Positions 10,844 to 55,209 of a stretch of 64,000 nucleotides of DNA are shown piece by piece. How positions within the stretch are numbered: position 1 is the stretch's first letter; every line of letters begins with the position of its first letter. The notes under the pieces were generated by a model. That model was not told the DNA's origin and ran no database searches. It was given only the letters and a program-made list of their open reading frames with translations. This DNA is from an uncultured Cellvibrio sp. (GTDB lineage Bacteria; Pseudomonadota; Gammaproteobacteria; Pseudomonadales; Cellvibrionaceae), in the NCBI GenBank assembly GCA_946480695.1, contig CAMLKG010000002.1, positions 1 through 64,000 of the forward strand, written 5' to 3'. The translations under genes and the position numbers were made by a program.

Positions 10844-11042
10844 AACGTACGAACGGTCCCCGCAACCGTTAGCTTTTTTTGCGATTTTCATATTCGTAGG
10901 AAAAGTGGCGCCCGCCATTTGGCCGGGTGGAGAGGCGTAATACAAAACCCGAAAGGGGAATAGGCCCGGAGCGTTTCGTACGGCTCTAGTTGACACCCGG
11001 CTTCCAGCTACTAACTGGAGGCCGTTAACTTCAACGTACGAA
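10844..11042 (+). other. Structured non-coding segment before the 86-residue ORF
   Basis: The 332-bp gap between motB and the next ORF has unusual internal symmetry. AACGTACGAA occurs at 10844-10853 and again at 11033-11042; its core complement TTCGTACG lies at 10975-10982 and can pair with either copy. Inside the downstream pairing are a 4-bp stem (10990-10993 with 11031-11034) and a 9-bp stem (10999-11007 with 11015-11023, one G-U pair, 7-nt loop). A CCC-GAAA-GGG mini-hairpin lies at 10948-10957. The ribosome-binding sequence AGAGG (11042-11046) abuts the outer stem. A regulatory leader or small RNA is plausible; no known riboswitch class was recognised. Confidence 0.45.
10852..10880 (+). 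terminator. Intrinsic terminator after motAB
   Basis: AACGGT (10852-10857) pairs with ACCGTT (10865-10870) around a 7-nt loop, followed by AGCTTTTTTT. The first two bases overlap the upstream copy of a 10-base repeat described next. Confidence 0.6.
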
Positions 11043-41357: not shown

Positions 41358-42053
41358 CTAAACACTTAAATAACGTTGCACCAGATCATCATTTAAATTT
41401 CCCATTGGCCCTGTTGCTACCACGCTGCCTTTTTCCATGATAAAAAAATCATCGGCCACGCGGCGGGCGAAGGGAAGTTTTTGTTCGACCAGTAAAACCG
41501 TTAAGCCCAACTCGCGATTAAGCTTGCGAATTACTTCACCGATATCGCGCACTACATTGGGTTGTATTCCCTCGGTGGGCTCATCAAGTATTAATAGTTG
41601 GGGGTCCAATACCAGGGCCCTGCCGATAGCGAGTTGCTGCTGTTGCCCGCCGGATAAATCACCGCCACGCCGGTGTTTCATTTCTTTTAATACCGGGAAT
41701 AATTCATAAATCAAGCCGGGAATAAAACGGGATTTGTCTTTGCGTGCGCCCAATGAAATTTTTAAATTTTCCTCGACCGTGAGCAGCGGAAAAATTTCAC
41801 GGCCCTGGGGTACAAAGCCAATGCCGCTACGGGCGCGATTCTCGGTGGAAAGTTTATTAATGTCATAACCGTTTAAGCGGATTGAACCATCGCGAACAGC
41901 TAATAATCCGGTAATACATTTCAATAAGGTAGTTTTCCCCACACCGTTACGGCCAATCAAGCAGCCACAGGTGCCTTGCTTCAGGTCCAGGGACAAATCC
42001 CACAATATATGGCTTTGGCCGTAATACTGATTGATGTTTTTTATTTCCAGCAT
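41358..42053 (-). CDS. urtE: Urea ABC transporter ATPase UrtE
   Basis: The 231-residue LivF-like ATPase of the urea importer. Walker A GRNGVGKTT, signature LSGGQQQQLAIGRALV, Walker B LLILDEPTEGI, and the UrtE-type start MLEIKNINQYYGQSHILWDL. It is the last gene of the urt cluster, 3 bp after urtD, so translation is probably coupled. Confidence 0.94.
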   Translation of the reverse strand: MLEIKNINQYYGQSHILWDLSLDLKQGTCGCLIGRNGVGKTTLLKCITGLLAVRDGSIRLNGYDINKLSTENRARSGIGFVPQGREIFPLLTVEENLKISLGARKDKSRFIPGLIYELFPVLKEMKHRRGGDLSGGQQQQLAIGRALVLDPQLLILDEPTEGIQPNVVRDIGEVIRKLNRELGLTVLLVEQKLPFARRVADDFFIMEKGSVVATGPMGNLNDDLVQRYLSV

Positions 42054-42056
42054 TTT

Positions 42057-42869
42057 CTATTCACCTAAATATACTTCAATCACCCTGGCATCGTTCTGGA
42101 CCTGGTCCATAGTACCTTCGGTTAAAACCGAACCTTGATGTAATACAGTTACCTTACGTGCAATTGAACGCACAAATTTCATATCGTGTTCGACGACTAT
42201 CACCGAGTGCTCGCCTGCGAGCGATAGCAGGAGTTCGGCGGTTTTTTCCGTTTCCTCCCCGGTCATACCCGCGACCGGTTCGTCTACCAGCAGCACTCGC
42301 GGGTTTTGCATCAGCAACATACCGATTTCCAACCATTGCTTTTGTCCATGGGACAGCGAGCCCGCATTTTTGTACCTGTATTCCGCCAGGCCAATTTGCA
42401 CCAGGACTTCATCGATACGGTATTTTTGTGTGTTGTTAAGTTGTTGCGTCAGCGTCCACCACACACGTTTATCCGCAGCGGTTGCCAACTCCAGGTTTTC
42501 ATAAACGCTCAGGGCTTCAAAAATTGTCGGCTTCTGGAATTTTCGACCGATTCCGCCGCGCGCAATTTGATGTTCGGACAGTTCCAATAAGTTGATTTGC
42601 TGGCCGAAATACACACTGCCTTCATCAGGTTTGGTTTTACCGGTAATCACATCCATCATGGTGGTTTTGCCTGCGCCGTTGGGGCCGATGATGCAACGTA
42701 ATTCACCTTCATCGATATAAAGGTTCAGATTATTCAATGCGCGGAAGCCATCGAAACTGACGGTTACGCCTTCCACATACAAAATGGTGCGGTGGGTGGT
42801 ATCCAGCGGAGCACCGAAGTTGGCATCCTTTTGACCTAGTGAATAGCGATTGTGAGAAAAAATATTCAT
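42057..42869 (-). CDS. urtD: Urea ABC transporter ATPase UrtD
   Basis: The 270-residue LivG-like ATPase. Walker A GPNGAGKTTMMDVITGKTKP and the UrtD-type signature LSHGQKQWLEIGMLLMQNP followed by LLVDEPVAGMTGEETEKTAE. The start codon overlaps the urtC stop as TAATG, so the two are translationally coupled. An extra N-terminal stretch of about 25 residues precedes the domain. Confidence 0.94.
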   Translation of the reverse strand: MNIFSHNRYSLGQKDANFGAPLDTTHRTILYVEGVTVSFDGFRALNNLNLYIDEGELRCIIGPNGAGKTTMMDVITGKTKPDEGSVYFGQQINLLELSEHQIARGGIGRKFQKPTIFEALSVYENLELATAADKRVWWTLTQQLNNTQKYRIDEVLVQIGLAEYRYKNAGSLSHGQKQWLEIGMLLMQNPRVLLVDEPVAGMTGEETEKTAELLLSLAGEHSVIVVEHDMKFVRSIARKVTVLHQGSVLTEGTMDQVQNDARVIEVYLGE

Positions 42870-44083
42870 TACACCGGCTCCTTGGCGGTAATAACACCGG
42901 CAACGGGCTTTGCTGTTATATCTCTTGTGGTATTTTCTGTGGCGATAGCGGGCCTATCGCTCTCGCGCTCCTGAATTGTATTTTTCTGTTGGCTTGCGGT
43001 TTTTTTTGCGCGCTTAAATAAACCCACCAAACCGTTGGGCAGTAACAGAGTTACTATGACAAACAAGGCTCCCAGGGCAAACAGCCAGGTTTCCGGTGAA
43101 TAGGAGGTAAAAATTGTTTTCCCATAGTTAACGGTGAAGGCACCGACAATGGCACCAAATAAAGTACCGCGTCCACCTGTGGCAACCCACACGACCAGTT
43201 CGATGGAATTGAGCGGGGAAAATTCACCCGGATTGATAATGCCGACTTGCGGCACGTAGAGCGCGCCGGCAATGCCCGCCAACATTGCAGAAAATACAAA
43301 CAACCACAGCTTATAGGATTCCACTTTATAACCGCAAAAACGCGTGCGGCTTTCCGCATCGCGAATCGAGATAATAATTTTCCCCATACGTGATGTCACA
43401 ATATAGCGGCACGCAATGTAGGCGAGGATTAGCATAAACCCGGATGCTAAAAATAAAGAAATGCGTGTACCCTCGGCAGCAATCGGTAAACCTAAAATGT
43501 CTTTAAAATCCGTCAAGCCATTATTGCCGCCAAAACCCATTTCGTTGCGAAAAAAAGCAAGCATCAATGCGTAAGTGAGTGCCTGGGTAATTATAGAGAA
43601 ATAAACACCGGTAACGCGCGAACGAAATGCCAGCCAGCCGAATACAAATGCAAGTATTCCCGGTACCGCAATCACCATCAGCATGGCGAACCAGAACATA
43701 TCAAAACCTTGCCAATACCAGGGCAATTCCTTCCAATTCAGGAATACCATAAAGTCGGGCAATACAGGGTCACCATATTGTCCGCGCGGGCCGATTTGCC
43801 GCATCAGGTACATTCCCATTGCATAACCCCCCAATGCGAAAAAAGCGCCGTGGCCCAAGGATAGGATTCCGCAGTAACCCCAGATTAAATCCACCGCAAG
43901 TGCGAGTAACGCATAACACAAGAACTTTCCGAGCAATGTTACGGTAAAGGTGGATACATGCAGTGCCGACGTTTCCGGCACTAATAAATTGCACACCGGC
44001 ACAGCGACCATGGCAATCAACACCAGCCCCAGCACAATCATGCCGCCGCGATCACTGAGTAATAAACGTTGGGTTAACATCAA
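42869..44083 (-). CDS. urtC: Urea ABC transporter permease UrtC
   Basis: The 404-residue LivM-like inner-membrane permease. About ten hydrophobic segments; family stretches include LAVDLIWGYCGILSLGHGAF, the GFGGNNGLTDF segment, and the late VGIINPGEFSPLNSIELVVW and GGRGTLFGAIVGAFTVNYGK, typical of UrtC. A polar C-terminal tail of about 45 residues follows the last helix and is longer than I would expect. It pairs with UrtB to form the channel. Confidence 0.93.
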   Translation of the reverse strand: MMLTQRLLLSDRGGMIVLGLVLIAMVAVPVCNLLVPETSALHVSTFTVTLLGKFLCYALLALAVDLIWGYCGILSLGHGAFFALGGYAMGMYLMRQIGPRGQYGDPVLPDFMVFLNWKELPWYWQGFDMFWFAMLMVIAVPGILAFVFGWLAFRSRVTGVYFSIITQALTYALMLAFFRNEMGFGGNNGLTDFKDILGLPIAAEGTRISLFLASGFMLILAYIACRYIVTSRMGKIIISIRDAESRTRFCGYKVESYKLWLFVFSAMLAGIAGALYVPQVGIINPGEFSPLNSIELVVWVATGGRGTLFGAIVGAFTVNYGKTIFTSYSPETWLFALGALFVIVTLLLPNGLVGLFKRAKKTASQQKNTIQERESDRPAIATENTTRDITAKPVAGVITAKEPV

Positions 44084-44166: not shown

Positions 44167-45825
44167 TCAATCCGCCGCCGCGCGACCTTTCTGCGGAAAA
44201 ATTCCCTTGGGCCGCTTTTGGATAAACAAAATTAACAAGACCAGCACCAACACTTTGGCGAGCACCGCTCCCGCGTAAGGTTCCAAAAATTTGTTGATAA
44301 TGCCGAGCCCCATGGCACCAACGAGCGTGCCCCATAAATTACCGACACCGCCAAACACCACCACCATAAATGAATCGATGATGTAAGCCTGGCCAAGGTT
44401 GGGGCCGACATTGGTTAATTGCGAAAGGGCAACCCCCGCGATACCGGCGATGCCGGACCCTAAACCGAAAGTCATTGCATCTACCCAATTGGCCCGCACA
44501 CCCACAGCGCGCGCCATGGCGCGATTTTGCGATACTGCGCGCACTTTCAAGCCGAGTGTGGTTTTTTTCAGGATGACCAGCAATGCGAAAAACACCACCA
44601 CACCAAAAATAAAAATGTATAAGCGGTTATAGGTAATGGAGAGCACCGGATTAATTTCCAGGGAGCCGCTCATCCAGGCCGGCAATTCCACGGCGCGATT
44701 CAGCGGTGAGAAAAGGCTGCGTGCCGCTTGCTGCAAAATCAAACTAATACCGAAGGTGGCGAGCAGGGTTTCCAGTGGGCGGCCATATAAAAAGCGGATC
44801 ACGCCGCGCTCAATAGCGATGCCAACCAAACCTGCCACAATAAAGGCCGCAGGTACGGCAATCATCAAGCTATAGGCGATCTGGTTAGGAAAAAATTGCT
44901 GCACAAGCCAGGTAACATAGGCGCCGATCATCATTAATTCGCCGTGGGCCATGTTAATGACACCCATGACCCCAAAGGTAATGGCGAGGCCTATAGCGGA
45001 AAGCAAAAGCACCGACCCCAAACTCAATCCGAAGAAGATATTTTCCGCGAGGCGGTATGCGGCTATGCGATCATCAATCGTGCTGAGGGCGAGTTGTGCC
45101 TGGTGTTTTATTTTCCTGTCGCTGTCATTGGCTGCTATATCACTCAGGGCAGTGCGCACTTCTTGCAATAAACTGCCGCGCAGGGTTTGGATTGCATCCA
45201 ATCTTGCTTGTTGATCATTACTGTGCAGGTTCAGTAGCGCCACAGCGCTGTTAATAGCAGTGCGCACATTTTCGTCGGGCTCGGTTTTTTGGCGTTCCTG
45301 TAAAAGCGCTATTGAACTTTCATCAACACCATCGGCAATCATGCGGTTTACCGCCTCCAGGCGCACAGCCGCGGTTTTGTGGTTTAAATTCAATTGCGCC
45401 AGCAAGCTACGCAATTGGGTGCGCATGCTGTTGTTTACCGGTACGCGTTTCAATGATTGGGTATCCCCCAGCTTTTCGCCGCTGATGGCATCGAGGTAAA
45501 TTTTTCCTGTAATGATGGCAACAGTCGGGTTTGCCCCCTTGCTTGCATATAAATTACCTTGCTGCAAAGCTTCAATAATCCGTGCAACGCGCGGATCATC
45601 CACCGCAGCTAATTTTTTTACAATTTGCGCACGTTTGGGCAGGCTGCCCTGGGTGAGGTTTTTTACCAGCTTATTAAATTCCGGCTCCGTATTTGTCGTA
45701 TCGGATTCAATATGGGGGATTAGTTGCCCGCTATTTTGCGAAAAAGCCATGGCCGAAAAGCAAATTGATAGGAGCAATACCAATTGCATATGCCAGTGGG
45801 CAAATGCCCTTACTGAGTTTCGCAT
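44167..45825 (-). CDS. urtB: Urea ABC transporter permease UrtB
   Basis: The LivH-like permease, 552 residues. The frame is open to 45969, where it would run into urtA, so I use ATG 45825, which begins a normal signal peptide (MQLVLLLSICFSAMAFS). A helical periplasmic region of about 200 residues follows (LPKRAQIVKKLAAVDDPRVA), usual for UrtB and absent from LivH. The membrane part carries GVMGVINMAHGELMMIGAYV, RAVSQNRAMARAVGVRANWV and GGVGNLWGTLVGAMGLGIIN. The gap to urtA is 119 bp. Confidence 0.93.
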   Translation of the reverse strand: MRNSVRAFAHWHMQLVLLLSICFSAMAFSQNSGQLIPHIESDTTNTEPEFNKLVKNLTQGSLPKRAQIVKKLAAVDDPRVARIIEALQQGNLYASKGANPTVAIITGKIYLDAISGEKLGDTQSLKRVPVNNSMRTQLRSLLAQLNLNHKTAAVRLEAVNRMIADGVDESSIALLQERQKTEPDENVRTAINSAVALLNLHSNDQQARLDAIQTLRGSLLQEVRTALSDIAANDSDRKIKHQAQLALSTIDDRIAAYRLAENIFFGLSLGSVLLLSAIGLAITFGVMGVINMAHGELMMIGAYVTWLVQQFFPNQIAYSLMIAVPAAFIVAGLVGIAIERGVIRFLYGRPLETLLATFGISLILQQAARSLFSPLNRAVELPAWMSGSLEINPVLSITYNRLYIFIFGVVVFFALLVILKKTTLGLKVRAVSQNRAMARAVGVRANWVDAMTFGLGSGIAGIAGVALSQLTNVGPNLGQAYIIDSFMVVVFGGVGNLWGTLVGAMGLGIINKFLEPYAGAVLAKVLVLVLLILFIQKRPKGIFPQKGRAAAD

Positions 45826-45944
45826 AGTTTTGTCTCGATAACGCAAATGTAAATAACGCGGAATATTGTTGTCATGCGCCTCACGAAGCTGCCCCAGTGG
45901 GCAACTCCGGGAAGTGCATTCGGCAGAAGTAACTACACCAATCA

Positions 45945-47240
45945 TTACTGGGCAGCAGCGCCCAAACATTTTTTGGTTTTAGTGTTGTAGTTGCCGCACT
46001 TCAATGTGGTCCAGTCAGACTCCAGGTCTTTTGAGCCATCAAGGAAATCCGACCAGGCATCGCCGGCAACCAGGCCTTCGGTTTCCCAAACGGTGAGGAA
46101 CTGGCCATCATCCTGGATTTCACCGATCAATACCGGTTTGGTGATGTGATGGTTAGGCAGCATTTTGCTGGTGCCGCCGGTCAGGTTAGGTACTTCCACA
46201 CCGACAATTGCGTCAATCACTTTATCAGGATCGGTTGACTTGGCTTTCTCAACAGCTTTTACCCACATATTGAAACCTATGTAATGGGCTTCCATGGGGT
46301 CGTTGGTAACCCGTTTTGGATTTTTGATGAACTCTTTCCATTTTTTAATAAACGCAGCGTTAGCCTCGTTCTCCACACTCATGAAATAATTCCATGCAGC
46401 GAGGTGACCAACCAATGGCTTGGTGTCGATACCGGAAAGTTCTTCTTCACCGACGGAGAAAGCTACCACTGGAATATCTTCCGCGCTCACTTTTTGGTTA
46501 CCGAGTTCGCGATAGAACGGCACGTTAGCATCGCCGTTGATGGTGGAAACCACAGCGGTTTTTTTACCGGCTGAGCCGAAACGCTTGATATCGGACACAA
46601 TGTTTTGCCAGTCGGAATGGCCAAACGGTGTGTAGTTGATCATGATGTCTTCCTGTTTTACACCTTTGGCTTTTAGATAGGCTTCAAGAATCTTGTTGGT
46701 TGTACGCGGGTAGACATAATCCGTTCCCGCTAATACCCAACGTTTTACTTCCATTTCTTTCATCAGGTAATCAACTGCGGGAATTGCCTGCTGGTTTGGT
46801 GCAGCGCCTGTGTAAAATACATTACGGGAAGATTCTTCACCTTCGTATTGCACCGGATAAAAAAGCACGCCGTTAAGTTCTTCGATTACCGGAAGAACGG
46901 ATTTGCGTGATACTGACGTCCAGCAACCGAAAATGGCATCGACTTTATCCTTGGTCAGGAGTTCACGGGTTTTTTCCGCAAACAATGGCCAGTTGGATGC
47001 GGGGTCTACAACAACTGCTTCCAGTTTCTTACCGAGTAACCCGCCTTTTTTATTTTGCTCCTCAATTAACATCAGCATGGTGTCTTTCAGCGTGGTTTCT
47101 GAAATTGCCATAGTCCCGGACAGCGAGTGGAGGACGCCCACTTTAATAGTGTCAGCAGCAACAGCGCTAAACGATGCGATCGTTAAGCCGCAGGCGACAC
47201 CGAGTGTCCCGATATGTCTTGCTATTTTCTTCAGCTTCAT
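45945..47240 (-). CDS. urtA: Urea ABC transporter periplasmic binding protein UrtA
   Basis: A 431-residue periplasmic protein with a signal peptide (cleavage after about residue 29, SAVAA-DT). UrtA-type features: IKVGVLHSLSGTMAISETTL, AIFGCWTSVSRKSVLPVIEE, FYPVQYEGEESSRNVFYTGA and the metal- or urea-site region VPVVAFSVGEEELSGI. UrtA captures urea with high affinity; it is usually induced under nitrogen limitation. AGGAG lies 8-12 bases before the ATG. The gene begins 53 bp after the GntR gene, with no clear promoter between them. Confidence 0.95.
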   Translation of the reverse strand: MKLKKIARHIGTLGVACGLTIASFSAVAADTIKVGVLHSLSGTMAISETTLKDTMLMLIEEQNKKGGLLGKKLEAVVVDPASNWPLFAEKTRELLTKDKVDAIFGCWTSVSRKSVLPVIEELNGVLFYPVQYEGEESSRNVFYTGAAPNQQAIPAVDYLMKEMEVKRWVLAGTDYVYPRTTNKILEAYLKAKGVKQEDIMINYTPFGHSDWQNIVSDIKRFGSAGKKTAVVSTINGDANVPFYRELGNQKVSAEDIPVVAFSVGEEELSGIDTKPLVGHLAAWNYFMSVENEANAAFIKKWKEFIKNPKRVTNDPMEAHYIGFNMWVKAVEKAKSTDPDKVIDAIVGVEVPNLTGGTSKMLPNHHITKPVLIGEIQDDGQFLTVWETEGLVAGDAWSDFLDGSKDLESDWTTLKCGNYNTKTKKCLGAAAQ

Positions 47241-47293
47241 GGTCTTGCTCCTGGATGGTTTTAATGGCTCAGTGGTTTTGTGGTACGTTTAAA

Positions 47294-48007
47294 TCAATCC
47301 GGATGTTGCTGCTGTGCTTCATAAAGCATATGCAAGGTAATTTTCCGCACTTCAGCCTTGCTCGCTTCAATGTGGGTTTTCAGGTAACTTTTCACGTCTT
47401 CGGCTCGTCGCTCTATAATTGTTCGCAAAATTTTTGCATGTTCATCGTAAGTTGCTTCAATGCGATTGCGTTGGGTAAAGTCAATGCGACGAATAATGCG
47501 TAAGCGCTCGGTAATGTCGTGGTGGATGCGCGCCATTTCGCGATTACCGGTAGCTTCAATCAATTGTTCATGGAAACGCTCATCCAGTGCGCAAACCGTT
47601 GGGCCGTCTTCTAGTCGATCGTCCGGCTTTACCAGCCAGATGCGTTTTAAATCCTCCAGGTTGGGGGCGGGCTCCATCTCGCACAATTTTTTAACCGCCG
47701 CTAATTCCAAAATAATGCGAACATCGTAAAGTTGTTCAAATTGTTTGAAGTCGAATGGTTTTACTTGCCAACCACTGCGAAAGGAAACATCAACAAACCC
47801 TTCGCGTTGCAAGCGCGCCAAGGCTTCGCGCACCGGTGTTCGGCTTGCAGCAACTCGCTCGGCAATTTCGTTTTCGCTAAAACGATCGCCAGGCAATAAG
47901 CGAAATGAAAAAATATCGTCCTTGATAATTTGATAGATCCGTTCTGTTAAGTTGGTGCGCGGTTCGTCGACTTTTTTTTTGTTTTTTTCGGATTTTATTA
48001 ATTTCAT
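47294..48007 (-). CDS. GntR-family (FCD) transcriptional regulator of the urea operon
   Basis: A 237-residue regulator with a winged helix-turn-helix (about 17-85; IAERVAASRTPVREALARLQ) and an all-helical FCD effector domain (about 95-225) with the metal-ligand pattern DERFHEQLIEATGN...EHAKILRTIIE..H. FCD proteins bind small carboxylates or metals and usually repress their own operon. It lies inside the gene string between urea carboxylase and urtA. A 28-bp palindrome with AATACAA/TTGTATT arms at the operon's start is its likely operator. The ligand may be urea, allophanate or a related compound; that is inference. Confidence 0.88.
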   Translation of the reverse strand: MKLIKSEKNKKKVDEPRTNLTERIYQIIKDDIFSFRLLPGDRFSENEIAERVAASRTPVREALARLQREGFVDVSFRSGWQVKPFDFKQFEQLYDVRIILELAAVKKLCEMEPAPNLEDLKRIWLVKPDDRLEDGPTVCALDERFHEQLIEATGNREMARIHHDITERLRIIRRIDFTQRNRIEATYDEHAKILRTIIERRAEDVKSYLKTHIEASKAEVRKITLHMLYEAQQQHPD

Positions 48008-48028: not shown

Positions 48029-51000
48029 TCAATTGGCTTCCAATACCAACAACAAATCGCCTGCATTGACTTGTTTCCCAGCTTGCACATGAATAGCGCT
48101 GACTTTTGCAGTGCGATCAGCATAGACCGAGAATTCCATTTTCATGGCCTCCACAATTAACAGGGGTTGATCCGCTTCAACCAACTGGCCCGGCTCAACC
48201 AAAAGTTTCCAGATATTTCCGCTGATATCCGCCGTCACGGCGTGACCGTCAACTTCAATGGGACCGGTATTGATCTTTACTTGCAAGGCGGCATCCACCT
48301 GCGCAGCTTCGTCGGCTTGCCAGAGTGCAACTTCTTTGGTAAAGGCGGCTTGTTGGCGGGTTTTAAATTCCGCAATGCTCACGGCGTTCGTTTGCAGGAA
48401 TTGCTCGTGCTCCGCGAGGCTGAAATAATCTTCTTCGATGCGCAGGTTTAAACGGCCCTCACGGAACGCTTCGCGTTGTGCGGTAAGTTCTCCTTCGCTG
48501 ACTTCGTAGTAGCGCACGCGATCAAAGAATTTGAGTAACCAGGGTTCGCCATTTTTAAACACCGGATTTTTCAAAAATTTATTCCAGATGGGCAGGGTGC
48601 GGCCTACCAATTGATAGCCGCCGGGTGAATCCATCCCATAAATACACATGTACACACCGCCAATTCCAACGGTGCCTTCGGCGGTATAAGTGCGCGCTGG
48701 ATTGTATTTTGACGTGAGCAGGCGATGGCGTGGATCAACAGGCACCGCGCAAGGAGCACCGAGGTATACATCGCCTAAACCCAATACCATATAACTGGTA
48801 TCGAAAATAATTTCCTTGACCCGGGCGATTGAATCCAGGCCGTTAATGCGACGGATAAATTCAGTATTGCTGGGTAACCAGGGGGCTGCATCGCGCACCG
48901 ATTGGCGATAGCGGGCAACCGCATCGAGTGTTGCGGAATCCTCAAATGCCATGGGTAAATGGACGATGCGACTCGGCACTTTAATATCGCGCGCATCGCC
49001 AAGGGTTTCTTCAATAACCAGTAAACGGTTAATTAATTCGCGTTGATGTATAACACGGCTGTCGTAGTTGATTTGCAACGAGCGCACACCGGGAGATAAT
49101 TCAATTACCCCTTCAATTGGGGTGGCCTTGAGTGTTTCCATCAGGGCGTGCACACGCAGGCGCAAACTTAATTCAAGGATGTTGTCGCCATACTCAAGCA
49201 AAATATATTTGTCGCCCGCCTGGCGATAGCTCACCAGTGGGCGGCTGCCTTGTGCAGGCAAGGCGGCAATAATACATTCGGAAATGGTGTTTTCCGGCGT
49301 AACTGTCGGAATGGGTAAAACAGCGGGCTGTACGCTCAGGTTTTCGATAGCGCGGTCAATCGCCAATTCCATTGCTAACGCGGTATCGAAACCCAAACGC
49401 CTGAAGCGAATTTTATCGCCCGGTTTTACCTGGCCCACTTTCCATAGTTCCGCTTTGGCAATCGTAACCGGGCAAACAAAACCACCGAGGCTGGGGCCGT
49501 CCTTCGTCAGGATAACGGGCATATCGCCGGTAAAGTTAATGGAACCGATGGCGTACTCGGTATCGTGGATGTTGGAAGGATGTAAACCCGCCTCACCGCC
49601 ATCACTACGCGTCCAGACAGGTTTCGGTCCATTCAAACGGATGCCCAAACGGTTGGAGTTGTAGTGCACTTCCCACGCGGTGGAAAAAAACATTTCTATC
49701 GCTTCGGGCTTAAAGAAATCCGGCGCACCGTGTGGACCGTAAAGCACACCGATATCCCATTCAGTTGGCGTTTCGCTTTTTGAAAAACAACCGGGAATTA
49801 ATTCGACCGGGGCGGCTGAGGCTGCGTAAATCGGCGCAGGTGTGGTACATGCCGCGATAGCGGGATTACTGATTGGCAACATATCCGTAGCGCGCAATGT
49901 GCGACCGGCGTGGCCACCAAATTGGCCCAAGGCAAATGTCGAGCGGCTGCCAAGGTAAACCGGCACATCAAAACCGTTGCGCACCGCGAGGTAGCCGCGA
50001 CAGCCTTGTTCGGCCTTGCCAATATCAAGGATTTGTCCGGCTTTAATGGCTACCGGTTGCCAGAAAGGAATTTCGTTGCCATTTATTTTCGCGGGCGAGG
50101 TGGCACCGGTGAGCGCAATAATCGCATCGCAATGGAATTTCAAGGCTGGGCCGATAATGGTGTATTCGAGTGCTGCAGCACTTTCGTGGTTGCCTACAAT
50201 ACGGTTGGCTAGACGGAACGCGTAGTCATCCATGGGGCCTGATGGCGGAACGCCGACGCTCCACAATCCCACTCGTCCCGGATAATCCTGCACACTGGTA
50301 TAAGTTCCGGGTTGCAGTACTTCTACAACGGGTGGCAAATAATTGAGGGCCGCGAGTTTATTTGTGGCTACATCGCCCGCAATGAAAAAATCAGACGCGA
50401 TAATTTGCCGCAGGTAATCCAGGTTGGTTGCGATACCGGCCGCGCGGGTTTCATTGAGGGCGGCACTCATTTTGCGAATCGCATCGGTACGGTCTTTGCC
50501 GTACACAATAATTTTTGCAATCATCGGATCGTAATAGGGGGACACTTCGGTGCCTGTGGCAACCCAGGTGTCGATACGCGCAGAGCCAGGGAAATATACG
50601 TCGGTTAATACCCCGGGCGATGGCTGGAAGTCGCGTACGGGATCTTCCGCATACAAACGTACTTCAATTGCGGCACCCTTCGGGTTAATGGCGATATCCA
50701 GTGTTGGCGGCGTACCGGCAGCGGTGAGGATCATCCATTCCACTAAATCCACGCCGGTGCAAGCTTCAGTGATGGGGTGTTCAACTTGCAAACGGGTATT
50801 GACTTCGAGGAAATAAAATTCATCCCGCGCCGGATCATAAATATATTCGATGGTTCCCGCGGAACGGTAGTTCACCCGCTTGCCAAGGCTTACCGATGCG
50901 GCCAATAATTTTTCGCGTGTCGCTGCGGGCAGGTGTGGCGCCGGCGTTTCTTCCACCACCTTTTGATTGCGGCGTTGCAATGAACAATCGCGCTCACCCA

Positions 51001-51667
51001 ATGCAATGACATTGCCCTTGCCATCACCAAAAATTTGTACCTCTACATGGCGCGCGTTATCGACGAAGCGTTCGAGGAATACGCCGGAATCGCTGAAAAA
51101 GTTTTGCCCCAAACGTTTAACACTTTCATAAGCGTTAATTAATTCTGCTTCGCTATTGCAACGTGTTAAACCTATACCGCCGCCGCCCGCTGTGCTTTTC
51201 AGCATCACCGGATAACCGAGACTTGCCGCGGCGCTGGTGGCTTCTTCCACGGAACCCAGGAGACCGGTGCCTGGTGTGAGCGGTACACCGGCTTGTTCAG
51301 CGAGTTCACGCGAGGTGTGCTTTAAGCCGAATTGGCGAATTTGCGCGGGGGTAGGGCCGCAAAAAACAATACCTTCAGTTTCACACTGCTCACAAAATGT
51401 TGCATTTTCGGATAAAAAACCGTAACCGGGAATAATCGCCTGTGCACCGCTTTCCTTTGCGGCTGCCAGGATTAAATCTGCTTTCAGATAACTTTCTGCT
51501 ACCGTATTACCCCCAAGGCATATCGCTTTATCACAGGCAATGACGTGCGCCGAGTTGCGGTCAGCATCCGAATATACAGCGACAGACTCAATGCCCATTT
51601 TTTTCAGGGTCCTGGCAATACGCACCGCAATTTCCCCGCGGTTGGCGATAAGCACGGTTTGTAACAT
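48029..51667 (-). CDS. uca: Urea carboxylase
   Basis: A 1212-residue biotin enzyme that carboxylates urea to allophanate using ATP and bicarbonate. Domains: biotin carboxylase (about 1-445; FLSENATFCEQCETEGIVF, GGGGIGLTRC, FLEVNTRLQVEHPITE); AHS2-type carboxyltransferase half (about 455-770; SVQDYPGRVGLWSVGVPPSG and the GPSLGGFVCPVTI stretch); AHS1-type half (about 815-1010); and biotin carrier with the lysine in VEAMKMEF near residue 1175. The length fits the family. Related enzymes act on guanidine; the specificity residue was not mapped, but the attached urt genes and the absence of a guanidine riboswitch favour urea. GGAG lies 8-11 bases before the ATG. Confidence 0.94.
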   Translation of the reverse strand: MLQTVLIANRGEIAVRIARTLKKMGIESVAVYSDADRNSAHVIACDKAICLGGNTVAESYLKADLILAAAKESGAQAIIPGYGFLSENATFCEQCETEGIVFCGPTPAQIRQFGLKHTSRELAEQAGVPLTPGTGLLGSVEEATSAAASLGYPVMLKSTAGGGGIGLTRCNSEAELINAYESVKRLGQNFFSDSGVFLERFVDNARHVEVQIFGDGKGNVIALGERDCSLQRRNQKVVEETPAPHLPAATREKLLAASVSLGKRVNYRSAGTIEYIYDPARDEFYFLEVNTRLQVEHPITEACTGVDLVEWMILTAAGTPPTLDIAINPKGAAIEVRLYAEDPVRDFQPSPGVLTDVYFPGSARIDTWVATGTEVSPYYDPMIAKIIVYGKDRTDAIRKMSAALNETRAAGIATNLDYLRQIIASDFFIAGDVATNKLAALNYLPPVVEVLQPGTYTSVQDYPGRVGLWSVGVPPSGPMDDYAFRLANRIVGNHESAAALEYTIIGPALKFHCDAIIALTGATSPAKINGNEIPFWQPVAIKAGQILDIGKAEQGCRGYLAVRNGFDVPVYLGSRSTFALGQFGGHAGRTLRATDMLPISNPAIAACTTPAPIYAASAAPVELIPGCFSKSETPTEWDIGVLYGPHGAPDFFKPEAIEMFFSTAWEVHYNSNRLGIRLNGPKPVWTRSDGGEAGLHPSNIHDTEYAIGSINFTGDMPVILTKDGPSLGGFVCPVTIAKAELWKVGQVKPGDKIRFRRLGFDTALAMELAIDRAIENLSVQPAVLPIPTVTPENTISECIIAALPAQGSRPLVSYRQAGDKYILLEYGDNILELSLRLRVHALMETLKATPIEGVIELSPGVRSLQINYDSRVIHQRELINRLLVIEETLGDARDIKVPSRIVHLPMAFEDSATLDAVARYRQSVRDAAPWLPSNTEFIRRINGLDSIARVKEIIFDTSYMVLGLGDVYLGAPCAVPVDPRHRLLTSKYNPARTYTAEGTVGIGGVYMCIYGMDSPGGYQLVGRTLPIWNKFLKNPVFKNGEPWLLKFFDRVRYYEVSEGELTAQREAFREGRLNLRIEEDYFSLAEHEQFLQTNAVSIAEFKTRQQAAFTKEVALWQADEAAQVDAALQVKINTGPIEVDGHAVTADISGNIWKLLVEPGQLVEADQPLLIVEAMKMEFSVYADRTAKVSAIHVQAGKQVNAGDLLLVLEAN

Positions 51668-51723: not shown

Positions 51724-53535
51724 TTATTGCTGCAAGGATTTTATATACGCCCGCCAGCCACCGAGGTGCGTAATATCTTTGGCATCCCTCACGGCAATGC
51801 CTTCACAGATAAATCCCTTTACTTCACGGCCATCTTTTAAGCTGAGCGTACCTATACCAAGTGGAGCGGGAATCAGCGCAACAAAACTGCCGAAGTGCTG
51901 GATGGGCAGATCCCACAATTCCACAATAATTTCTGCCCCTTCGCTTTCAGTGCGAATCAATCCGGGTTTGGGAGGCGTGGTATTGGGCAAAGCGAATAAT
52001 CGATAATTTTTTGCAGTGAACGTGCTTTCAACAAAAAGCGCCTTGCGCTCTTGCAATTGCGCATTGAGCGGCATTCCGGTCAGATGCGCACCTACGACGG
52101 CGAGGCGCACATAACCTTTCGGGGGTTCAGTCGGAGCGATAAATTCAGGTTGTTTTTTATCAAGTGAGCCCAGCGGTAAACGGGATGCAGCGTGCCATTT
52201 TTTTCCGAAAGCGACGAGCGCGGCGTCTTGCCAGGCGGGCGCGATCAAGGTAATACCGAAAGGCAGTCCATCAGTGCGCATTGCCGCGGGCAACGCGATA
52301 GCGCAACAATCCGCAAGGTTGACAAAATTGGTGTAAGTGCCGATCTGGCTATTGATTGTAATTGGATCGACCGTAACTTCGGCGATCGTCGGATGACGCG
52401 GTGATGTGGGCACCAATAACGCATCGAAATCATTCATTAATGTGTGGATGGCGCGAACGAGGTCCGCGCGCCGGTATTCGGCAAGAAAACTATCTGTTGC
52501 AGAAAAATTAACCGCTTTTTCGACAATAGAGCGGACGATTTCATTCATATCGTTCGCATGGTTTTTCATAAACCCGCCAATTGCCGCGTGACGCTCGGCA
52601 ATCCATGGACCGCCGTAAAGTAGTTGCGCGAGTTCAAACATCGGGGTGAAATCAATTTCAATGATATCCACGTTGAGCGCGCGCATTTTTTCCAATGTTA
52701 ATTCCCAGGCAGCCTGGGCTTTCTCGTCCTCAAACCACTTGGGCGAGGCGGGAATGGCAAAACGTGGTGATGCGGAAAAATAAATGGCGGCTAGCGGGGC
52801 TTTGCGCGAATAACTATCTGCCCCATCAAATTTTTCCATTAAAGATGCAACCAGTTCCGCATCCCCAACCGTAAGTGAAAAAATCGAAACACAATCCAGG
52901 CTGCGACACGCGGGCACTACGCCTTTGGTACTGAAACGGCCTTTGGTGGGCTTCAATCCCACAATATTGTTAAAGCCGGCGGGTACACGGCCTGAACCTG
53001 CGGTATCTGTTCCCAAACTGAACGGCACTAAACCCCTGGCGACACCGGTGGCCGAACCGGAGCTGGAGCCGCCGGAAATGTAGTCAGGGTTAAATGGATT
53101 GGGCACAGCGCCGTAAGGTGAGCGTGTGCCAACCAGGCCGGTGGCAAACTGATCGAGATTGGTTTTACCCAGTACGATCGCGCCTGCTGCTTTCAGGTGC
53201 GCAACACTGGTTGCATCCGTTGCGGGAACATAAGTAAAAGCGGGGCAGGCAGCCGTGGTGGGAATACCGGCTACGTCGATGTTGTCCTTGACGGCAAAAG
53301 GTACGGCGTAGAGCGGAAGATGTTTAGCATCACCGCCGAGGGCGTCCAGTTGTGCGTCCAACTCAGCGGCAGAAACAATGTAAATCCAGGAAGTATCCGA
53401 ACTATTTAATTGGTTATGGACTAATTGATTGCGAAGGTGATGCAGGGCTTCACGCGCATCCAACCCATTATTGCGATAGGCTTCCAACCATTCATTAATT
53501 GTCCAACCGGTTGTTATTTGCGTTGACTGCGTCAT
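51724..53535 (-). CDS. atzF: Allophanate hydrolase
   Basis: A 603-residue amidase-signature enzyme that splits allophanate to ammonium and CO2, completing urea breakdown. The Ser-cisSer-Lys triad is visible: Lys83 in PFAVKDNIDVAG, the serine-rich loop GGSSSGSATGVARG, and the nucleophile in GTDTAGSGRVPAG. A C-terminal domain (about 455-600; VRLAVVGAHLTGMPLNAQLQ and on) matches the extra domain of AtzF/DUR1. It is the first gene of the urea operon, 56 bp upstream of the carboxylase gene, and begins 25 bp from the GntR-type palindrome. Confidence 0.94.
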   Translation of the reverse strand: MTQSTQITTGWTINEWLEAYRNNGLDAREALHHLRNQLVHNQLNSSDTSWIYIVSAAELDAQLDALGGDAKHLPLYAVPFAVKDNIDVAGIPTTAACPAFTYVPATDATSVAHLKAAGAIVLGKTNLDQFATGLVGTRSPYGAVPNPFNPDYISGGSSSGSATGVARGLVPFSLGTDTAGSGRVPAGFNNIVGLKPTKGRFSTKGVVPACRSLDCVSIFSLTVGDAELVASLMEKFDGADSYSRKAPLAAIYFSASPRFAIPASPKWFEDEKAQAAWELTLEKMRALNVDIIEIDFTPMFELAQLLYGGPWIAERHAAIGGFMKNHANDMNEIVRSIVEKAVNFSATDSFLAEYRRADLVRAIHTLMNDFDALLVPTSPRHPTIAEVTVDPITINSQIGTYTNFVNLADCCAIALPAAMRTDGLPFGITLIAPAWQDAALVAFGKKWHAASRLPLGSLDKKQPEFIAPTEPPKGYVRLAVVGAHLTGMPLNAQLQERKALFVESTFTAKNYRLFALPNTTPPKPGLIRTESEGAEIIVELWDLPIQHFGSFVALIPAPLGIGTLSLKDGREVKGFICEGIAVRDAKDITHLGGWRAYIKSLQQ

Positions 53536-53559
53536 TATGGTTTCCGCTTGAATATCTTA

Positions 53560-53587
53560 AATACAATCTTGGATACAAGTTTGTATT
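53560..53587 (-). promoter_or_regulatory. 28-bp palindrome, probable GntR/FCD operator of the urea operon
   Basis: Arms AATACAA (53560-53566) and TTGTATT (53581-53587) enclose CTTG..AT..CAAG in register, so 24 of 28 bases are symmetric. It covers the predicted sigma-54 transcription start. The TTGTA/TACAA arms fit FCD-type GntR operators. Confidence 0.65.
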
Positions 53588-53588
53588 C

Positions 53589-53604
53589 AGCAGAAACTGT
53601 GCCA
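53589..53604 (-). promoter_or_regulatory. Sigma-54 promoter of the urea operon
   Basis: On the minus strand TGGCACAGTTTCTGCT has a perfect -24 box (TGGCAC, 53604-53599) and a -12 GC (53591-53590), exactly 10 bases apart as sigma-54 requires. Only the base before TGC departs from the TTGC consensus. The start would be near 53578, about 43 bp upstream of atzF. Confidence 0.7.
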
Positions 53605-53723
53605 GCTTATAACCGGCACATGTATGTAGGTAATCAAAGCGATAATTCATTTATATTCAAAGGGTTAAATAACCCAATGGTATTTTCCGGAATATCTGGC
53701 GCCGTGTTGGGAAGCAATTTTAT

Positions 53724-53770
53724 GCGCTCATGTTGTGCGACTAATTTGTTGGCGGGGACCAAATTGGTGC
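53724..53770. promoter_or_regulatory. Two NtrC-like enhancer sites upstream of the urea operon
   Basis: GGACCAAATTGGTGC (53756-53770) differs from GCACCA-N3-TGGTGC by one base. A weaker copy, GCGCTCATGTTGTGC, lies at 53724-53738. Their centres are 32 bp apart (three helical turns), the spacing known from glnA, and they lie about 150 and 185 bp upstream of the predicted start. Confidence 0.6.
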
Positions 53771-53841
53771 GGTTGGGAAAATCAGGTAGTCTAGTCACAA
53801 ATAAACGCACAGAATGAGCAAATTTATTATCGGGACATTCT

Positions 53842-55209
53842 ATGAGTATGAATTGGAACCAACTGCTATGCGCTGATCGTTTGGGTGGGCGCCCGGCAAA
53901 ACACGAGGAAGGGCGCTCGCCTTTCCATTCAGATCACGACAAAATTATTTTTTCCGGGGCTTTTCGTCGCCTCGCGCGCAAAACGCAAGTGCACCCAATG
54001 GCGTCTAATGATCACATACACAATCGCATGACTCACAGCTTGGAGGTGGCGTGTGTTGGCCGCACGTTAGGAATTCGCGTCGGGCAGGCATTGAAAAATA
54101 AAGGTGATTTACCGCAGCCTATTTTGCCCACAGACATAGGTGATATTGTCCAGGCAGCCTGCCTCGCCCACGATATAGGTAATCCTCCGTTTGGACACAC
54201 CGGTGAAGATGCGATTCGCAACTGGTTCCAAAAAGAAGGTGCGGAATTTTTGCGCGATTTGTCATCGTCCGAGCGGGACGATTTTCGTGTGTTTGAGGGG
54301 AATGCGCAGGGGCTGCGCGTATTAACGACGTCCGAATATCATCAATACCATGATGGTATGCGTTTAACCTATGCGACTTTAGCCTCATCAATCAAATACC
54401 CATGGACATCTTCACCGACGGTATTGGGCCAACGCCCGAAGAATTCCAAATATGGGATTTTCCAATCTGAATTAAATTGCTTCCACGAGATCGCGCAAAA
54501 AACCGGATTGATTGAGCGCGGTGCTGATTGGTATTGCCGGCATCCGCTCGTTTATTTAATGGAGGCGGCGGACGACTTTTGTTACGGCATTATTGACCTG
54601 GAGGATGGCCTGGAAATGGGTATCCTTAACTGGAATGAAATTTATGAATTGTTGCATCCGGTGATAGAGGATTCCGCGCAGTTAGCCGATTTGGAGCGCT
54701 TATTGAAAAAAGTTAACGACGGACGTAAACCGGCGCTTGTGCGCGGTAAAGTGATTGATGCATTTATTAATGCGGGAACGGCGGCGTTTATTAAGCACCA
54801 GGATGAATTTTTAAATGGGGAAGTCACAGGAGATTTGATTTCATTGTGCGACGGAAAAGTACGGGTTGCGGTTGAGGCTGCGAAGGAATTGGCCAAGCGA
54901 AAAATTTTCAATCATTCGCGCCGTGTCGAATTGGAAATTGGCGCCTACACCGTAATAGGAACCTTGCTCAGCACAATTTGCTCAGCGGTCTATGCTTCCC
55001 TGGGGGATGCATCGCAAATGACTTATAAAGATAATCGGGTGATGGCGCTGATTGGGGAAAACAATTTCCATCCCAATGTAATCCGGCGCGAGAAAAATTA
55101 TAAATACCTGGCGTTGATGGCGGTCATTGATTACATCAGTGGTATGACAGACAATTATGCCACTAATTTGGCCAAACAATTTAATGGTATGGGGCATTCC
55201 CAGTATTAG
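53842..55209 (+). CDS. dgt: Deoxyguanosinetriphosphate triphosphohydrolase-like protein
   Basis: A 455-residue HD-domain nucleotide hydrolase that releases tripolyphosphate from dGTP or other dNTPs. HD-superfamily metal ligands: the His in RMTHSLEVACVGRTLG, the HD pair in CLAHDIGNPPFGHTGE, and a later Asp in EAADDFCYGIIDLED. The N-terminus with ADRLGGRPAKHEEGRSPFHS and FRRLARKTQVHP is typical. ATG 53842 and ATG 53848 are both possible. It is divergent from the urea operon and followed by a strong terminator. Confidence 0.93.
   Translation: MSMNWNQLLCADRLGGRPAKHEEGRSPFHSDHDKIIFSGAFRRLARKTQVHPMASNDHIHNRMTHSLEVACVGRTLGIRVGQALKNKGDLPQPILPTDIGDIVQAACLAHDIGNPPFGHTGEDAIRNWFQKEGAEFLRDLSSSERDDFRVFEGNAQGLRVLTTSEYHQYHDGMRLTYATLASSIKYPWTSSPTVLGQRPKNSKYGIFQSELNCFHEIAQKTGLIERGADWYCRHPLVYLMEAADDFCYGIIDLEDGLEMGILNWNEIYELLHPVIEDSAQLADLERLLKKVNDGRKPALVRGKVIDAFINAGTAAFIKHQDEFLNGEVTGDLISLCDGKVRVAVEAAKELAKRKIFNHSRRVELEIGAYTVIGTLLSTICSAVYASLGDASQMTYKDNRVMALIGENNFHPNVIRREKNYKYLALMAVIDYISGMTDNYATNLAKQFNGMGHSQY

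Follow-up and report, generated by a model that had tools for sequence, protein, structure and literature searches.

The DNA analysed here, a 64-kb stretch that we call the window throughout, comes from a relative of Cellvibrio, with an AtzF 85% identical to those of the closest named loci, in Cellvibrio mixtus and Cellvibrio sp. 79. Its minus strand carries the gene order atzF-uca-gntR-urtA-urtB-urtC-urtD-urtE (Table 1), in which the true start of urtB probably lies inside the annotated frame. The control region studied (positions 53536-53841) is the whole 306-base intergenic stretch between atzF and a divergent dGTPase gene at 53842. The carboxylase is predicted to act on urea rather than guanidine, with urtABCDE encoded downstream and no guanidine-I riboswitch detected by Rfam in the 64-kb window. 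Riboswitch control was rejected, since Rfam gave no match near the operon.

Table 1 Genes and predicted control elements of the urea operon (positions are those of the window)
Feature	Position	Strand	Sequence	Remarks
NtrC-like site 1	53771-53755	-	CGCACCAATTTGGTCCC	Centre 53763, about -185; 14.8 bits (P-II matrix); 81% mean column identity, 19 loci
NtrC-like site 2	53739-53723	-	CGCACAACATGAGCGCA	Centre 53731, about -153; 7.4 bits, second best of the region; 89% mean identity
IHF-like site	53655-53667		ATTCAAAGGGTTA (+ strand letters)	Between NtrC-like sites and promoter; 8/9 consensus letters, hand count
Predicted sigma-54 -24/-12 promoter	53604-53589	-	TGGCACAGTTTCTGCT	GG-N10-GC exact, 9/10 specified letters; 93% mean identity
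Putative operator dyad	53587-53560	-	AATACAAACTTGTATCCAAGATTGTATT	28 bp, 12/14 pairs symmetric, centre about +5; predicted GntR-FCD site
Predicted transcription start	53578	-		Placed from the sigma-54 site, 12 nt past the -12 C
atzF, allophanate hydrolase	51724..53535	-		Amidase and AH_C; TIGR02713 818.5 bits, cut-off 511
uca, urea carboxylase	48029..51667	-		TIGR02712 1917.6 bits, cut-off 1303.9
gntR, FCD-type GntR regulator	47294..48007	-		PF00392 and PF07729
urtA, urea ABC transporter binding protein	45945..47240	-		TIGR03407 568.8 bits, cut-off 492.8
urtB, permease	44167..45969	-		PF02653; position kept in relatives; named by order
urtC, permease	42869..44083	-		Position kept in relatives; named by order alone
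urtD, ATPase	42057..42869	-		Position kept in relatives; named by order alone
urtE, ATPase	41358..42053	-		TIGR03410 336.9 bits, cut-off 285.8

Elements of the control region

The preliminary description had placed a minus-strand sigma-54 site upstream of atzF with its -12 GC exactly 10 bases from the -24 element, and we recovered this site as a predicted promoter with exact GG-N10-GC in a TGGCAC/TTGC context. Within the 64-kb window, the sigma-54 pattern gives no signal above chance (47 matches against 46.3 expected, with up to two mismatches), and the NtrC pattern likewise shows no excess (34 matches against 31.9 expected, with up to three mismatches; site 2 is not among the 34). Because these window-only counts are at chance level, the sigma-54 and NtrC-like sites owe their credibility to conservation. 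Across 19 aligned loci the elements are 81-93% conserved, compared with 53% for the remainder. The preliminary description had itself named a lack of conservation of the palindrome and NtrC-like sites in close relatives as grounds for rejection; both proved to be conserved in the Cellvibrio group. The chance-level frequency of the two patterns in the window would suit a reading of the motifs as coincidences, or as relics of shared ancestry without function. We regard this as highly improbable in view of the conserved blocks within a diverged intergenic region, the recurrent 32-bp spacing and mirrored arm changes described below, and the recurrence of the elements down to about 53-58% AtzF identity (L003-L007 and L080, and L143 by its core). 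Sigma-70-like sites were absent from 53500-53860, which is weak evidence since shuffled sequences average just 1.1. On the minus strand at 53598-53620, a terminator-like stem (TGTGCC...GGCACA) runs across the -24 element; its left half is absent in L001 and L002.

NtrC-like sites were scored with a matrix trained only on 24 sites, themselves predicted, from 12 P-II (glnK-type) promoters of related genomes. We collected 28 P-II loci from 12 genomes, and 12 of these loci, from 11 of the 12 genomes, have a sigma-54 promoter of glnK type (a label assigned here). In all 12 promoters a pair of GGTGC half-sites with 32-bp spacing lies 90 and 122 bases from the sigma-54 site. The window shares this exact spacing before its -24/-12 element, whereas its sites start 135 and 167 bases from the sigma-54 site; their centres lie at the distance of about 150-185 bp upstream given by the preliminary description. 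Site 1 alone was equalled by 3 of 200 shuffles and the 32-bp pair (score 22.1) by none of 200. Judged against the predicted P-II sites, the pair in the window therefore resembles the NtrC sites of its lineage, and the lineage encodes the proteins concerned: among 12 genomes of relatives, NtrC is encoded in all 12, with scores over the cut-off, and RpoN in 11 (G012 gave no match).

When the matrix was applied to 39 atzF promoters, the two best non-overlapping sites were exactly 32 bp apart in 16, the window included. The spacing is 31 bp in L070, L071 and L079, 30 bp in L072 and L074, 29 bp in L066, 20 bp in L080 and 19 bp in the Alcanivorax group (L003-L007). Also outside the exact 32-bp set are the Cellvibrio-group loci L057 and L062, and in L068, L069, L073, L075, L076 and L078 the best two sites form no such pair. 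The earlier identification of the sites with NtrC is thus supported in the window, where the P-II matrix recovers both, and less generally elsewhere, because 32-bp pairs score above all 200 shuffles in only 19 of the 39 promoters. Upstream of NtrC site 1, L052-L056, L060 and L065 carry an inverted repeat (ATCTCAAT...(A/T)TTGAGAT) that was not seen in the window.

The IHF-like site (consensus used, WATCAANNNNTTR) adds an element to those first described. It lies 60-63 bases before the start of the sigma-54 site and outside the two best matches listed for the window. With the two best matches per locus counted, 16 of 19 Cellvibrio-group loci, plus L067, have a like-placed sequence 65 bases upstream of where the sigma-54 site starts. 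Such sites are mostly not significant in single loci; the block nonetheless has 88% mean identity across 19 loci.

The near-perfect 28-bp palindrome reported at the predicted start does overlie it, spanning about -9 to +19, and no other 28-mer in the 64-kb window reaches 12 symmetric pairs of 14 (mean of 0.15 such 28-mers in 20 shuffles). Taking the majority letter at each position over 25 distinct sites gives a perfect palindrome, AATACCATCTTGTATACAAGATGGTATT, in which GTAT/ATAC elements recur at positions 2-5, 12-15, 14-17 and 24-27; these repeats would make the dyad long enough for two dimers. In most loci the dyad begins 17 bases past the start of the sigma-54 site (16 in L054 and L078, 15 in L076, 14 in L079), and in L057-L059, L061-L064, L080 and the Alcanivorax group it begins 24-27 bases past it. 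At every one of these offsets the dyad touches or overlaps the predicted start, lying between about -12 and +29.

Changes in one arm of the dyad tend to be mirrored in the other. Among the sites compared, which were chosen for resemblance to the dyad of the window, we counted 17 double-changed cells against 8.0 in shuffles and scored covariation at 0.154 (0.090 in shuffles), neither value being reached in 500 shuffles; 75.4% of cells are paired, which 2 of 500 shuffles reached. Of the five covariation measures, the remaining two are not outstanding: 51 of 500 shuffles did as well for pairs with a double change, and 80 for further pair types. In a control slid by +2, double-changed cells again numbered 17, the score was 0.123 and 43% of cells were paired.

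An inverted repeat near a transcription start might instead act as RNA, in a leader hairpin or terminator, and an offset of 26-27 bases from the sigma-54 site start would allow transcription of the entire repeat. If transcription starts at 53578, however, the dyad's left end (53587-53579) would stay untranscribed in the window, as it would wherever the offset is 17 bases or less. Three terminator-like stems occur in 53500-53860 (mean of 0.2 in shuffles), the dyad not being one of them, and Rfam has no family at the dyad. An RNA role therefore seems very unlikely, and we treat the dyad as a putative DNA operator. In L059, L061, L064 and L075, an extra split dyad with a longer centre (CTTGTAT...ACAAG, or near) lies about 80-120 bases before the sigma-54 site, between it and the NtrC sites, as if it were a second GntR contact.

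Linkage of the dyad to gntR

We compared the window with 50 loci obtained by searching for AtzF in 145 C. mixtus-related genomes and in GTDB contigs; the set took 10 of the 17 GTDB-contig loci and 40 stretches from matches in the 145 genomes, with several full-length lower matches left out. gntR was scored as present at 50% identity or more, and loci without gntR are those with none within the stretch examined. All 37 loci with gntR have the dyad core within -110 to +20 of atzF, whereas none of the 13 loci lacking gntR has it. This core (TTGNATNCAA with at most one mismatch) was read off the same sites; random 130-base stretches from these loci contain it by chance about 5% of the time. L056, which has the core and no visible gntR on an 8.2-kb contig that stops within uca, short of where gntR would lie, was kept out of both counts. 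The Fisher value for this co-occurrence is overstated, because the relatives share ancestry and the counts are not independent. Single elements have been lost in some loci. L077 has atzF and urt without gntR, and there the sigma-54 site is retained and the dyad absent. L068 and L073 keep atzF-gntR and the dyad, with uca and urt absent from the stretch examined; neither has a sigma-54 site at 8/10 with GG-N10-GC, and their NtrC matrix scores were equalled by 93% and 45.5% of shuffles, respectively, in a stretch positioned from the best sigma-54-like match.

A 26-letter dyad pattern read off the sites (up to two mismatches) matched at atzF in 17 of 17 genomes and nowhere else in 15, an exclusivity specific to this search; G011 has one further place and G018 two, and P-II promoters gave no match. 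A looser search (up to three mismatches) of 16 other genomes matched at atzF in 13, with scattered extra matches, and found a second site before gntR in G040, G062 and G078. It missed atzF in G024, which has no gntR beside atzF, and in G108 and G127, where the sites are core-only.

Five loci (L069, L070, L071, L072 and L074) have a second sigma-54 site and dyad directly before gntR, again with the 17-base offset; L066 has a degenerate second copy there, set in another register by the matrix. NtrC-like sites precede the second copies in five loci, with 0.5 to 5% of shuffles scoring as high as the best site. A partner 30-31 bp away is among the best three sites in all five, that of L070 scoring just -0.1. 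The atzF copies in four of these five loci likewise have their two best NtrC-like sites 30-31 bp apart, L069 being the exception. This arrangement suggests that a promoter-operator module has been copied within the operon.

These results favour the earlier proposal that the palindrome belongs to the GntR protein encoded in the operon. The co-occurrence with gntR, the single site in 15 of 17 genomes and the second copies before gntR all point to the dyad as its probable operator, and with the mirrored arms they yield the symmetric, gntR-linked dyad that would be expected for a GntR/FCD protein. The first three observations likewise speak against activation by GntR, or ownership of the dyad by another regulator, and an operator placed over the transcription start is in the position of a repressor; we consider either possibility improbable.

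A search for this GntR across the class (369 genomes) gave three matches at E ≤ 1e-55, in G001, G314 (locus L143) and G251 (locus L142). L143, found later by way of gntR, has a sigma-54 site at 9/10, NtrC-like sites 30 bp apart and, by our own reading, the core with one mismatch (TTGTATACAT) between arms GCATA/TATGC; the dyad matrix, which was trained on the same sites that it scores elsewhere, gives it -9.2, the best of the scanned stretch. L142 encodes a 53% identical GntR relative beside different neighbour genes, and the scan found no such operator there.

The GntR protein and a model of control

D142, H146, H190 and H212 are among the residues invariant in 37 GntR orthologues and align with D, H, H and H of the FCD structures 3sxy and 3fms, which we take to be the metal ligands. 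In FCD proteins the metal ligands hold carboxylate effectors; allophanate is a carboxylate and urea is not, which makes allophanate the likelier inducer. We therefore infer that the inducer is urea or, more likely, allophanate. Membership of the HutC type was rejected: the protein has an FCD domain, no UTRA (the effector domain of HutC-type GntR proteins) was found at E ≤ 0.001, and TIGR02018 gave 24.6 bits against a cut-off of 220. PhnR, NanR and other GntR-FCD regulators are FCD-type relatives; the best NCBIfam scores were 96.1 bits for phnR_burk and 65.0 for NanR (cut-offs 271.5 and 260), so far under the curated cut-offs that the protein falls outside both families.

We conclude from these sequence comparisons that the control region is very probably (probability about 0.82) an NtrC-activated sigma-54 promoter for a urea uptake and amidolyase operon, in which the start is overlain by the operator of an FCD-type GntR repressor that is encoded in the operon and dedicated to it. 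Under nitrogen limitation, NtrC-P would bind the tandem sites 32 bp apart, and an IHF-like bend may help it to contact the sigma-54 polymerase, so that the promoter can fire. GntR, presumed to act as a repressor, would block promoter melting or escape from the 28-bp dyad until a pathway metabolite releases it. Transcription would thus need two keys, nitrogen hunger and substrate.

The same operator could serve a GntR that acts mainly as a feedback brake, binding when a pathway product accumulates instead of being released by substrate. The sequence fits an inducer or a co-repressor equally, and negative feedback would suit the position of gntR inside the operon, preceded in five loci by a separate copy of the module. 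Relief by a substrate or intermediate is nevertheless usual for catabolic GntR regulators, and we think a feedback brake unlikely. HutC with urocanate is a case of such relief (PMC12977541). A further elaboration of the repressor model, which we put forward tentatively, is that the NtrC sites, sigma-54 site and dyad form a portable promoter cassette, copied within the operon to stand before atzF and, in some lineages, before gntR-urt, and that the repressor senses the unstable intermediate allophanate through its FCD metal site. If so, the cell would gauge urea flux, not urea.

Relation to known systems

Two-signal logic is already known from HutC at hutU of Pseudomonas; the GntR subfamily, the operator and the pathway are new here. 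At hutU, NtrC acts as activator from a pair of palindromic upstream sites, and a pathway-specific GntR-family repressor leaves a footprint that overlaps the sigma-54 site (PMC12977541, PMC8871633). Both systems, the urea operon by prediction, combine a nitrogen-source catabolic operon, sigma-54, two NtrC sites and a pathway GntR protein over the promoter. HutC belongs to its own subfamily, binds TGTA-N2-TACA at many genomic sites and senses urocanate, and hutU is also under CbrB (PMC12977541, PMC8871633). The urea operon, by contrast, has an FCD-type GntR, a 28-bp dyad with core CTTGTATACAAG that has no further site in most of the genomes searched, and the urea pathway.

Urea use in Pseudomonas stutzeri is likewise under NtrC, at ureE, although through urease instead of urea carboxylase and allophanate hydrolase, and the available part of that source describes no GntR operator (PMC8443478). 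Ectopseudomonas guguanensis G3 has the same atzF-uca and urtABCDE genes with an adjoining gntR, together with an adjoining urease operon; the genes are given by annotation, and no operator or promoter is described in the part available (PMC13296017). The open-licence papers searched gave no description of this GntR or its operator, no other GntR operator for the urease-free urea pathway, and no occurrence of the core strings. The region offers a specific, testable regulator-operator pair for a urease-free urea pathway. With an operator over a sigma-54 start and each key naturally lost in different relatives, it also provides a comparative system for repressor block of a sigma-54 promoter.

Variation in the operon among relatives

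The gap between uca and gntR is 21 bases in the window and is filled by REP-like inverted repeats in L001, L050, L055 and L065. Between gntR and urtA (47241-47293) the window has about 55 bases, compared with 166-335 in 16 other Cellvibrio-group loci measured. The gap in L001, L002, L051 and L055 contains a conserved sequence block (GTGACAAC ... CAGTCACCCAC ... GCGTTACCGGAAAA), which is missing from the window. An Rfam search of the gap in L001, L051, L067 and L069 gave no match; the block may serve urt as a second promoter or as a leader RNA.

L068, L072, L073, L074 and L077 have atzF without adjoining uca. Elsewhere in their five genomes the best Uca-like proteins reach 49-53% identity (that of G080 has an internal TGA), and a second Uca-like copy in G001, at 53%, is comparable to them. 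These distant Uca-like proteins are perhaps of the guanidine type. Outside the operon, positions 10921-11010 of the plus strand of the window match the sRNA-Xcc1 family with 59.4 bits, against a gathering score of 53.
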